Below, piece after piece: positions 8,369-11,667 of a DNA stretch of 39,966 bases. Positions within the stretch are counted from its first letter, which is position 1. Each line of letters starts with the position of its first letter. This DNA is from Deltaproteobacteria bacterium (GTDB taxonomy: Bacteria; Desulfobacterota; Desulfobaccia; Desulfobaccales; 0-14-0-80-60-11): contig JAKAKP010000118.1 in NCBI GenBank assembly GCA_021813445.1, forward strand, positions 1 through 39,966, given 5' to 3'. The translations under genes and the position numbers were made by a program. The notes beneath the pieces were generated by a model. The model ran no database searches. It saw only the letters and a program-made list of their open reading frames with translations, and was not told the origin of the DNA.

Positions 8369-8500
8369 GCCTTTTGCAAAATGCTTATTTTATCGTAAAA
8401 ACTCTCCGCGAATTTTCTGCGTCCTCTGCGTCTCCGCGGTGAATTTTCCATTTTTTTCACCGCAGAGGCGCAGAGAGCGCAGAGAGAGGATACGCAGAGA
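8369..8500. repeat. 'CTCTGCGTC' repeat with long hairpin, copy 1
   Basis: Between the divergent kinase and methyltransferase genes (8263-8602) there is no further gene. 8369-8460 is about 80-90 per cent alike with 11221-11320: a 'ccttttgcaaaatgctta' head, 'cgtaaaaactctccgcgaa', then 'ctctgcgtctccgcggtgaa'. At 8454-8500 the sequence turns back (ttcaccgcagaggcgcagag), giving a hairpin of some 30 bases per arm. A third, inverted, degraded copy lies at about 38131-38182. Both divergent promoters must lie in or beside this block. Confidence 0.75.
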
Positions 8501-9417: not shown

Positions 9418-10080
9418 ATGCTGCCTATCTACTTAAAAGACCAGGACTTTACGCCGCCGGACGATCCCCTGTATTATCTCCTTACCAAGGACGGGCTCTT
9501 TCTGGTGAAGAGCACTCCGTTCTTTGCCGCGGCGGTGCCCGCCCGGGGCATCCCCTGGCTGGAGCCCCAGGAGCCGGAGGTGCGCCTCACCGCGCCGGCC
9601 CTGCCCGGGGCCTTGCTCCTTCAGGCCCTGGCCTTTTTCCGCGCCGTCTTTTCCCGTTATAAGAGCGAAGCCGTGGTTCTGCTGGCTTGGCGGGACGCCA
9701 CCCGCACCTATGAATTGGTCGTGCCCCACCAGACCGTGGGCGGCGGCCACTGCGACTACGAAGTCCGGGAATTTCCCCCGGGCCTGAGGCGCCTGGGCAC
9801 CATCCACAGCCACGCGGGCGTGGAAGCCTTCCACTCCGAACGGGATGAGGCCGACGAACGCCATGAGGACGGTTTCCATATCACCCTGGGGAACATCGAC
9901 GGCGAGTTGACCATCTCCTGTTCCGTGGTGGTCCAGGGCCTCCGGGGCCGCATCCCCCCGGAGAAGCTCTTCACCCCCTACCCCGTCCCCTGGGACCAGG
10001 CCGCCCCGGCAGCAGGCTGGGCCGCGGAAGTGGAGAGCAAAGTCACCCCCCTGCCCCGGCCCATCGAGTTTGGCACATGA
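9418..10080 (+). CDS. JAMM/MPN (JAB) protein, PRTRC protein A-like
   Basis: A 220-residue protein with a full JAMM metalloprotease signature: Glu84 in KSEAVVLLAW, then His130, His132, Ser140 and Asp143 in GTIHSHAGVEAFHSERD, matching HxH-x7-S-x2-D exactly. JAMM proteins cleave isopeptide or peptide bonds next to ubiquitin-like tails. The N-terminal region (YYLLTKDGLFLVKS) and the overall order resemble protein A of the PRTRC cassette as I recall it, rather than the RadC or Mec+ type. It follows the methyltransferase by 11 bases and precedes an E1-like gene by 329 bases of repeat DNA. No strong Shine-Dalgarno is visible, which would fit coupling to the upstream gene. No ubiquitin-like partner is nearby. 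Confidence 0.82.
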   Translation: MLPIYLKDQDFTPPDDPLYYLLTKDGLFLVKSTPFFAAAVPARGIPWLEPQEPEVRLTAPALPGALLLQALAFFRAVFSRYKSEAVVLLAWRDATRTYELVVPHQTVGGGHCDYEVREFPPGLRRLGTIHSHAGVEAFHSERDEADERHEDGFHITLGNIDGELTISCSVVVQGLRGRIPPEKLFTPYPVPWDQAAPAAGWAAEVESKVTPLPRPIEFGT

Positions 10081-10409
10081 GCAATAGTGAGCAGTGAGCA
10101 GTAAGCCGTGAGCAGTTGGTAGCCCAGGCTTTCCAGCCTGTGCGGGATGAAACCTTTCAGATCAGACATGTAGGGTGGGCACTGCCCACCGATTCCTTTG
10201 ATTAATTAACAAGAGGATGCACCCACAAAGAACTTTTCAGACCAGTTGCCCTTGAGCCAACGGCTCACCCATTAATTTTGCAAAGGACGTAGCGGCGGAC
10301 GTCTCGCCCGCACTGGTAATCCGCACAGGCGAGAAGCCTTTGCCACCAACCTTCTCTCTATTTATTGCGTCTTGCTCTGCGCCTTAGCGTCTTTGCGTGA
10401 GGTTAGTTT
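10081..10409. repeat. Repeat-filled spacer between JAMM and E1-like genes
   Basis: No open frame of interest, in particular no small ubiquitin-like gene. In order: a 'gagcagtgagcagtaagc' tract (10085-10118), the inverted repeat around caggctttccagcctg (10121-10144), a gtagggtgggcactgccc palindrome (10171-10190), part of the 'gagccaacggctcaccc' module (10253-10272), a 'gtctcgcccgc...gcgag' hairpin (10287-10345) and a copy of the 'GCAAAGACGC' family in reverse orientation (10365-10402). The GAGG that ends this last repeat (10399-10402) is placed seven bases before the E1-like ATG and probably serves as its ribosome binding site. Confidence 0.72.
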
Positions 10410-11081
10410 ATGCTGGAAATCAAGGCCATCGGCATCGGCGGCATCGGCTGTGCGTTGCTGCCTTTTCTCTGCCGGTATTTGCAGTACTCCGGGGAAAAGG
10501 CCCGGCTCACCCTGATTGACGGCGACCGTTTCGAGCGGGCCAACGCCGCCCGCCAGTCCTTCAGCCGCCTGGGAAATAAAGCGGAGGTGAAGGCCCAGGA
10601 ACTGGCCCAGGAGTTTGAAAACCTGTCATTGCGCGCGGTGCCGGAGTTTGTCACGGGGGAAAACGTCTCCCGCCTGCTCAAGGAAGGGGAAGTTATCTTC
10701 CTGATGGTGGACAACCACGCCAGCCGCAAGCTGGTGAGCGACCACGCCGCCACTTTGGCCGAAATCACCCTTATTTCCGGGGGCAACGACTTTGTGGACG
10801 GCAACGTCCAGGTTTACCTGCGGCGACAGGGCCGGGACCTCACCCCTTCCCTGAGCCGTTACCACCCGGAAATCGCCCAGCCCCAGGACCGCAACCCCGG
10901 GGAGCTTTCCTGCGAGGAACTCATGGCCGCGGGCGCGCCCCAACTCCTCTTCACCAACCTCATGGTGGCCAGCCTGATGCTCAACGCCTTCTATGCCTGG
11001 AGCCAGGACCGCCTGGCCTACTCCGAAGCCTACCTGGATATCCTGGAAAACCTCACCCGGGCCGTGGCCCGGCCGGTGTAG
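10410..11081 (+). CDS. E1-like adenylating protein (ThiF family), PRTRC ThiF-like
   Basis: A compact 223-residue member of the ThiF/MoeB/E1 superfamily, which adenylate the C-terminal glycine of ubiquitin-like or sulfur-carrier proteins. Visible residues: the glycine loop IGIGGIG (7-13), LIDGDRFERANAARQ with Asp37, Asp39, Asn45 and Arg48, Lys57 in GNKAEVKAQ, and MVDNHASRK with Asp101. A C-terminal SCEELMAAGAPQLLFTNLM tract (Cys168) resembles the end of PRTRC ThiF proteins. The MoeB-type CxxC zinc pairs are absent. Start ATG 10410 has GAGG seven bases upstream, supplied by a repeat. With the JAMM gene it makes a conjugation/deconjugation-type pair lacking its modifier. Confidence 0.85.
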   Translation: MLEIKAIGIGGIGCALLPFLCRYLQYSGEKARLTLIDGDRFERANAARQSFSRLGNKAEVKAQELAQEFENLSLRAVPEFVTGENVSRLLKEGEVIFLMVDNHASRKLVSDHAATLAEITLISGGNDFVDGNVQVYLRRQGRDLTPSLSRYHPEIAQPQDRNPGELSCEELMAAGAPQLLFTNLMVASLMLNAFYAWSQDRLAYSEAYLDILENLTRAVARPV

Positions 11082-11667
11082 AAGATATGGGGGGAGGGCC
11101 AGGGGCCTGAGGCCCCTGCCCTCCTCCCACGCCCCCCTCCCAACCCGCTTAAGCTTTGGCAGACTGTAGGGGGGCACCCAGGTGTGCCCCCGGGACGTTC
11201 GCAAAAACACATCTCCTTAGAGCCCTTTGCAAAATGCTTATATTTAATCGTAAAAACTCTCCGCGAATTCTCTGCGTCCTCTGCGTCTCCGCGGTGAATT
11301 TTCCTTTTTTTTCACCGCAGTTCTTCATGAGCCCCTGGCTTACCCATGAATTATGAAAAAACTGGTGGGGCGGGCCTCCGTGCCCGCCGAGCGTCTGGCG
11401 GGAAGGGACGCCCGCCCCACCCATTCCCTCTTTTCGGAGAAGTTAAAGAAAGGTGGGCAGTGCCCACCCTACAGAATGAACTTTTCGTAGCAGCCTGCTC
11501 AGTCTCTATAAATCAAGACAATCATAAGGATTAAGGCCGTAATATTTGCAGCCGCCAAGGCGGACACCTGGGTCCGCCCCTGCCACAAAAAACGGGGAAA
11601 GCCGGAACCTCCAGCTTTCCCCGCCAAATTTGCCACCAATCAAGAATAAAAAGAAACGTCGTCCCTT
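11082..11667. repeat. Repeat block: 'CTCTGCGTC' copy 2 plus composite element copy B (inverted)
   Basis: No gene. 11221-11320 is the second copy of the 8369-8460 repeat, ending abruptly in 'ttcaccgcag'. It is directly followed (11326-11490) by the inverted composite element: 'gagccc', 'ttatgaaaaa', the GC hairpin 11364-11421, 'cattccctcttttcggaga' and the ggtgggcagtgcccacc palindrome. The same two blocks lie together, in inverted orientation, at 37985-38185. 11546-11580 is a hairpin (ggcgga / tccgcc). The rest is unremarkable. Confidence 0.72.
11587..11623 (-). terminator. Rho-independent terminator of the lipoprotein pair
   Basis: Read on the minus strand, a stem with 10-base arms (CGGGGAAAGC / GCTTTCCCCG, 11593-11602 and 11614-11623) around an 11-base loop is followed by six T residues (11587-11592). 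It lies 45 bases downstream of the lipoprotein gene that ends at 11668. Confidence 0.75.

Follow-up and report, generated by a model that had tools for sequence, protein, structure and literature searches.

The window, as we call the whole 39,966-nucleotide stretch of Desulfobaccales DNA analysed here, contains a pair of genes related to components of ubiquitin-like protein (Ubl) modification systems:

9418 to 10080, forward strand: JAMM/MPN+ metalloprotease (PRTRC_A-related, Prok-JAB), 220 aa; Prok-JAB match above the cut-off, invariant catalytic residues
10410 to 11081, forward strand: E1-like (ThiF-fold) adenylating enzyme, 223 aa; ThiF match above the cut-off, conserved Cys168 in an LSCEEL motif

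The former is a predicted Ubl precursor-processing and deconjugating enzyme, and the latter a predicted Ubl-activating enzyme. In Pfam, the JAMM scores 26.8 bits against Prok-JAB (cut-off 25) and the E1 scores 66.2 bits against ThiF (cut-off 28.1); relatives of the E1 in the PDB are MoeB and Uba4. The original prediction credited both proteins with full catalytic signatures and drew attention to Cys168 of the E1, and our alignments bear this out. Both open reading frames are intact. Glu84, His130-Ser-His132, Ser140 and Asp143 of the JAMM are invariant among the 12 orthologues aligned, and GIGGIG (residues 8–13), Asp37, Asp39, Arg48, Lys57, Asp101 and Cys168 of the E1 are invariant among 10. 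Orthologues of other species are 75–91% identical, and dN/dS values of approximately 0.11–0.22, a range that leaves out the JAMM comparison with G013 (in which an unaligned indel threw off the frame), indicate purifying selection on both genes. Given these identities and ratios, the pair is not due to chance. The spacing between the two genes is 329 bp in the window and 37–59 bp in G008 and G011. A second Prok-JAB match in the window's genome was considered as a further JAMM and set aside, as it looks like a RadC protein.

An E1 orthologue occurs in 12 of the 59 relatives searched; all of these also have the JAMM, and one more JAMM, a fragment, lies at the end of a contig. Across 395 genomes of the phylum, matches to the JAMM profile are confined to this one family, and the viral contigs searched yielded no relative of the E1. 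Within the genus, the pair lies in stable chromosomal synteny with ordinary neighbours. As originally noted, a methyltransferase stop codon lies 11 bases upstream of the JAMM gene; this arrangement, with a methyltransferase preceding the JAMM, is found in the window's genome (G000) and in G002, G003, G005 and G006. The association suggested on this basis fails, because neither G001 nor G004 nor any of the other genera has the methyltransferase beside the pair; a small cupin gene takes its place in G001, G004 and G011. The unit is the JAMM–E1 pair, and the methyltransferase is an incidental neighbour.

Two further observations concern the surroundings of the pair. An 80-nt direct repeat, 96% identical between its copies at 8386–8465 and 11241–11320, lies on either side of the methyltransferase–JAMM–E1 segment, next to another repeat of 25 nt; as the position of the pair is kept in relatives, the 80-nt sequence is probably a dispersed repeat. 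Additionally, a contig of a Syntrophobacteria MAG (L133, 5992–6204) carries at its end the first part of an E1 that is 71% identical to that of the window and has no JAMM upstream, which may reflect another arrangement or a binning error.

Partner genes in other phyla and in the window's own genome

Among named genomes, E1s of this kind occur in Methylomirabilota/NC10 (59–67% identity), Acidobacteria (49–50%) and Planctomycetota (46–48%), and nearly all of these loci have a JAMM of the same family directly before the E1. In NC10, the order is AAA ATPase, a 267-aa protein (E2-like), JAMM, E1 and a protein of 85–89 aa (Ubl), with the five genes in one tight run in L126 and L127 and likewise in L121. 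In Acidobacteria and Planctomycetota, the order is AAA, small protein (Ubl), a protein of 285–292 aa (E2-like), JAMM and E1. The small and 267-aa proteins of these operons are named by no Pfam or NCBIfam model. We built Ubl and E2-like profiles from the operons of the three groups, and only these profiles found the corresponding genes in the window's own genome, on contig C111:

about 53153 to 53428 of C111, reverse strand: Ubl gene; profile match 53165 to 53371, E 9.5e-27
56458 to 58212 of C111, forward strand: AAA ATPase gene, 584 aa; shares 49% identity with the NC10 AAA across ~560 residues
about 59683 to 60450 of C111, forward strand: E2-like gene; profile match 59683 to 60447, E 3.5e-61

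The PRTRC_C model (TIGR03738) gave nothing over its cut-off in this genome or in 30 relatives and thus missed the real Ubl gene, even though a distant PRTRC_C homologue is present; Prok-E2_D (PF14460) missed the real E2-like gene, a negative that carries no information, as its control matched nowhere. A ThiS family search of the genome returned the ThiS of the thi cluster and a weak match inside a long frame, and also missed the Ubl.

The AAA gene lies between the Ubl and E2-like genes, and relatives keep this order, often on one contig; the C111 locus and the JAMM–E1 locus were never seen on one contig in Desulfobaccales. The Ubl, E1 and AAA genes share an identical distribution, being present in 12 of 40 related genomes; the E2-like and JAMM genes occur there and also in the incomplete G019. 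These counts do not represent independent events because the genomes are related. The other 27 relatives are without any part, except for a 31%-identical AAA in G028, the next AAA match. The 12 positive genomes belong to four genera (g1, g3, g6 and g8), and all parts are absent from another five genera of that family. These results bear on several points of the original prediction. It had noted that no cassette partners lie nearby, and the window indeed contains no homologue of the Ubl, the E2-like protein or the AAA ATPase. It had also suggested that the small modifier is encoded elsewhere and could be sought as a small beta-grasp protein with a C-terminal Gly, and the Ubl on C111, conserved to LAGEKG and followed by a variable tail, answers this description. 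Of its proposal of a reduced chromosomal system, the chromosomal setting stands; the system is not reduced, because the Ubl, E2-like and AAA+ genes lie on another contig of the same genome.

Two neighbours at the second locus deserve mention. A pair of nearly identical 119-aa endonuclease-like genes (C111 58566–58925 and 59142–59501; L167/L168) lies between the AAA and E2-like genes. Beside the Ubl gene is a gene for a 251-aa protein (C111 53644–54399, reverse strand) with no Pfam or NCBIfam match; it has orthologues in L169–L172, L175, L177, L179, L181 and L183, with a thioesterase-like gene conserved alongside, and may be either a sixth component or a mere neighbour.

The predicted model of the Ubl is a beta-grasp fold with a core pLDDT of about 80. 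With VIA-align, the best match is MoaD (Z 9.0, 66 residues, 2.1 Å), together with other carriers, and ubiquitin reaches Z 8.3; with Foldseek, ubiquitins are on top (probability 1.00, E about 1e-3). The Ubl of this genome also scores 23.9 against Pfam ThiS, above the cut-off of 22.5. Moreover, the family is conserved up to (L)AGEKG, or AGERG in Acidobacteria, and then stops or runs on for up to 43 residues that show no conservation, even between close species. The conserved end is a single Gly after Lys, not GG. An invariant Gly followed by a variable tail is what would be expected of a precursor cut by a protease after the Gly, and the JAMM would be the obvious candidate for removing the tail.

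For the E2-like protein, the profile of the 267-aa family matches PRTRC_B and the Firmicute 'E2 ligase family D' proteins (E 3.3e-7, 196 columns), and the invariant Cys of the family aligns on the Cys of these proteins. The family has no Pfam or NCBIfam match, and its predicted model is too poor (pLDDT 63) to judge the fold by, with no E2 among the Foldseek or VIA matches. We predict an E2 from profile similarity, an N...C motif and operon position, and the assignment is limited to these three bases because no family model matched and the poor model retrieved no E2 fold.

The AAA proteins of NC10 and Desulfobaccales have one complete AAA domain, which matches the D2 domain of p97/Cdc48 at E 1e-42 and carries Walker A (GPPGVGKT), Walker B (VVVVED) and pore loop (WVG) motifs; their first half is without a Walker A motif. 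The Acidobacterial ATPase gives a match of 122 bits to the Mpa/ARC proteasome ATPase, covering most of the Acidobacterial protein. Neither the NC10-type nor the Acidobacterial ATPase found the other in searches, which suggests at least two separate recruitments of an unfoldase. The two AAA ends that were read show no proteasome-docking C-terminus. No dedicated protease tracks with the system, as the presence of HslV and of a second proteasome-like protein is unrelated to its presence. Since no proteasome-type protease follows it, the outcome may be extraction or remodelling, not degradation.

Kinship with PRTRC and comparison with known systems

The original prediction likened the pair to PRTRC protein A and ThiF and proposed profile searches against PRTRC and bacterial Ubl-system families. 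PRTRC_A (TIGR03735) is the sole NCBIfam match of the window JAMM, at 31 bits and below the cut-off of 101.8. For the window E1, MoeB, ThiF and PRTRC_ThiF score about equally; PRTRC_ThiF (TIGR03736), the only one of these covered almost end to end, gives 40.4 bits, below its cut-off of 144.75, and reaches 68.7 bits with the NC10 E1. PADLOC gave no match for the JAMM. With hhalign, the window-type JAMMs align with PRTRC_A (E 2.4e-12) and the window-type E1s with PRTRC-type E1s (E 5.2e-22), both over nearly the full length. The likeness is therefore upheld as kinship by profile and a shared JAMM–E1 order, and not as membership: with scores far below the curated cut-offs, the two proteins are relatives of PRTRC A and ThiF.

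The same kinship extends to the partner proteins. The Ubl profile matches PRTRC_C at E 9e-6, the C-terminal FVRxAGxKG included. Unrelated profiles gave E-values of 0.026–0.43 against the Ubl and E2-like profiles, and none of 100 column-permuted profiles reached the real PRTRC_C or PRTRC_B scores. A tree of 35 E1 domains unites the window E1 with those of NC10, Acidobacteria and Planctomycetota in a single clade (100/99), apart from other E1s of the same genomes. This clade is sister to a group of PRTRC and Firmicute PRTRC-like E1s (98/94; both together 100/98). The Desulfobaccales E1s are nested in the NC10 diversity with support of 87/87, which is not decisive, and a transfer from an NC10-like donor is possible on this basis. 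On four Firmicute plasmids (L071, L072, L074 and L075), we observed PRTRC-like sets; the apparent Ubl is a short separate gene in L071 (3543–3917), and in L074 (3302–4684) it seems to form the N-terminal part of a fusion with the JAMM protein.

Operon type 6d of Iyer et al. 2006 comprises a Ubl with a conserved C-terminal Gly, a JAMM, an E1, an E2-like protein with an absolutely conserved His downstream of its Cys, and a helical protein; the term AAA is absent from the main text of that paper (PMC1779556). The present set shares with PRTRC (TIGR03735/6/8) and 6d a core of Ubl (FVRxAGxKG), E2-like protein, JAMM and E1, with an unfused JAMM adjoining the E1 in the same order, and it also has the small Ubl with a highly conserved C-terminal glycine. 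In contrast to 6d, its E2-like family has no downstream His: no invariant His follows the Cys in alignments A4 or A7. Unlike both, the window-type set is chromosomal and syntenic, stays below all PRTRC cut-offs and is split into two loci in Desulfobaccales; in its operons we saw no ParB or helical protein F and instead a Cdc48-like or Mpa-like AAA+ ATPase. Reading the ORFs around the two loci and those of the NC10 and Acidobacteria operons revealed no recognisable ParB-like protein, and a PRTRC_F-type helical protein is absent from those operons, which hold only AAA, E2-like, JAMM, E1 and Ubl genes. As a sister group, the set looks as if it works like 6d/PRTRC, although it is not PRTRC by definition. 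Within the non-subscription literature searched, we found no paper that describes the five-part set; an earlier mention of the AAA association, for example in the later Iyer/Aravind surveys, is possible.

Bacterial Bil and CBASS Cap2/Cap3 systems, with related layouts in Iyer types 6a–6c and 6e, follow the same E1, E2 and JAMM logic. They usually have E2–E1 or E1–JAMM fusions, use other E1 and E2 families and act in defence; we know of no unfoldase in them. The ATPase of the present set resembles known unfoldases in its p97 D2 match (Desulfobaccales and NC10) or Mpa/ARC match (Acidobacteria). Unlike Cdc48/p97, PAN and Mpa/ARC, it is encoded with a Ubl system, and its first half is without a Walker A motif. 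The ubiquitin operon of Caldiarchaeum subterraneum is reported to encode a Ubl precursor, E1, E2 and a precursor-processing Rpn11-like JAMM, parts with predicted counterparts in the present set, and additionally a small RING E3, a difference from the present set (PMC5654768, PMC6043591). Kinship with it was compared through Foldseek, in which the Ubl model gave a weak fold match to 6fj7.

Proposed cycle and alternative readings

On the evidence of gene identities, intact active sites, the precursor-like tail, the operons, the co-occurrence and the PRTRC/6d ancestry, all of it read from sequence, we consider it likely that the JAMM and E1 of the window are two parts of a complete five-part Ubl modification system, with the other three genes on C111. 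From the same material, we infer the individual enzymatic steps, the targets and the fate of the unfolded protein. The Ubl would be synthesised in a form in which LAGEKG is, in most cases, followed by a short variable tail, and the JAMM would remove this tail to expose the terminal Gly. The E1 would then adenylate this Gly and probably pass the Ubl to its own Cys168, from which the E2-like protein would take it on its invariant Cys and transfer it to a target. Finally, the Cdc48/p97-like AAA+ ATPase would engage the tagged target and unfold or extract it, and the JAMM would recycle the Ubl. More tentatively, and at slightly less than an even chance, we read the set as a bacterial ubiquitin–p97-like pathway, in which a PRTRC-related cascade labels endogenous proteins for a dedicated unfoldase, Cdc48-like in Desulfobaccales and NC10 and Mpa-like in Acidobacteria and Planctomycetota, with the ATPase recruited more than once.

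The main rival, given the MoaD/ThiS likeness of the Ubl, is sulfur transfer. The Ubl would be a ThiS/MoaD-like carrier converted by the E1 to an adenylate or thiocarboxylate, the JAMM would trim or release it (cf. CysO/Mec+), and the E2-like and AAA proteins would serve other steps. JAMM–Ubl sulfur pathways exist, both the sequence and the fold of the Ubl resemble ThiS/MoaD most, and MoeB and Uba4 are the E1 relatives in the PDB. However, the set is conserved together with an invariant-Cys E2-like family related to 6d/PRTRC_B and with a Cdc48-like unfoldase, and the Ubl ends in EKG, not GG. Moreover, no rhodanese, CysM or cofactor gene was seen beside either locus in the neighbourhoods read, and the genome has its own thi cluster on C154, in which about 4 kb separate ThiS from a ThiF. 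We therefore regard sulfur transfer as unlikely.

A role in anti-phage defence would keep the same biochemistry and place the set in the Bil/CBASS-like Ubl class instead of in housekeeping. Other bacterial E1–E2–JAMM sets are defence systems, and the present set is patchily distributed among the genera of one family; CBASS is a documented example of such a defence set (PMC10097602). Several features argue against it. The PADLOC models gave only weak partial matches on the E1 and none on the JAMM, no defence genes were recognised next to either locus, and the genes are under strong purifying selection in a chromosomal context that is stable within the genus and made up of ordinary neighbours. 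Collectively, these make a defence role improbable. Finally, the JAMM and E1 could be a reduced PRTRC remnant or an orphan pair, with an unrelated substrate (for instance a peptide, in an MccB-like adenylation) or with a tie to the methyltransferase. This would fit the window, in which only the pair is visible and the methyltransferase ends so close upstream, but it is very improbable. It is largely refuted by the co-occurrence, as Ubl, E2-like and AAA genes are present in this genome and are distributed like the pair; moreover, the methyltransferase is absent beside the pair in G001, in G004 and in the other genera.

Most of the Ubl systems known from bacteria are carried by plasmids or act against phages. 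If the ubiquitin–p97-like pathway is real, a stable chromosomal PRTRC/6d core with an unfoldase would be a bacterial analogue of the ubiquitin–p97 or ubiquitin–proteasome axis, and the long-unexplained PRTRC proteins would gain a testable biochemical role. A Ubl system split in this way escapes searches confined to gene neighbourhoods.

Double E1 genes in sister genera

Sister genera without the window system have a 'double E1' of 415–430 aa, and G001 has both. The N-terminal half of this protein resembles the inactive half of eukaryotic E1 (RLDRQLRIPGWNQ...), and the other half is an active ThiF. Each of the three loci read has a JAMM-like gene (HSHG...S..D) immediately before the 'double E1':

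L018, 1432 to 2700 and 2767 to 3513, reverse strand: 'double E1' locus with JAMM-like gene directly upstream
L024, 1432 to 2724 and 2841 to 3512, reverse strand: 'double E1' locus with JAMM-like gene directly upstream
L026, 805 to 2100 and 54 to 728, forward strand: 'double E1' locus with JAMM-like gene directly upstream

Further 'double E1' loci are L015, L016, L020, L023, L025, L028 and L031. The 'double E1' and its JAMM-like neighbour possibly constitute a second Ubl system.
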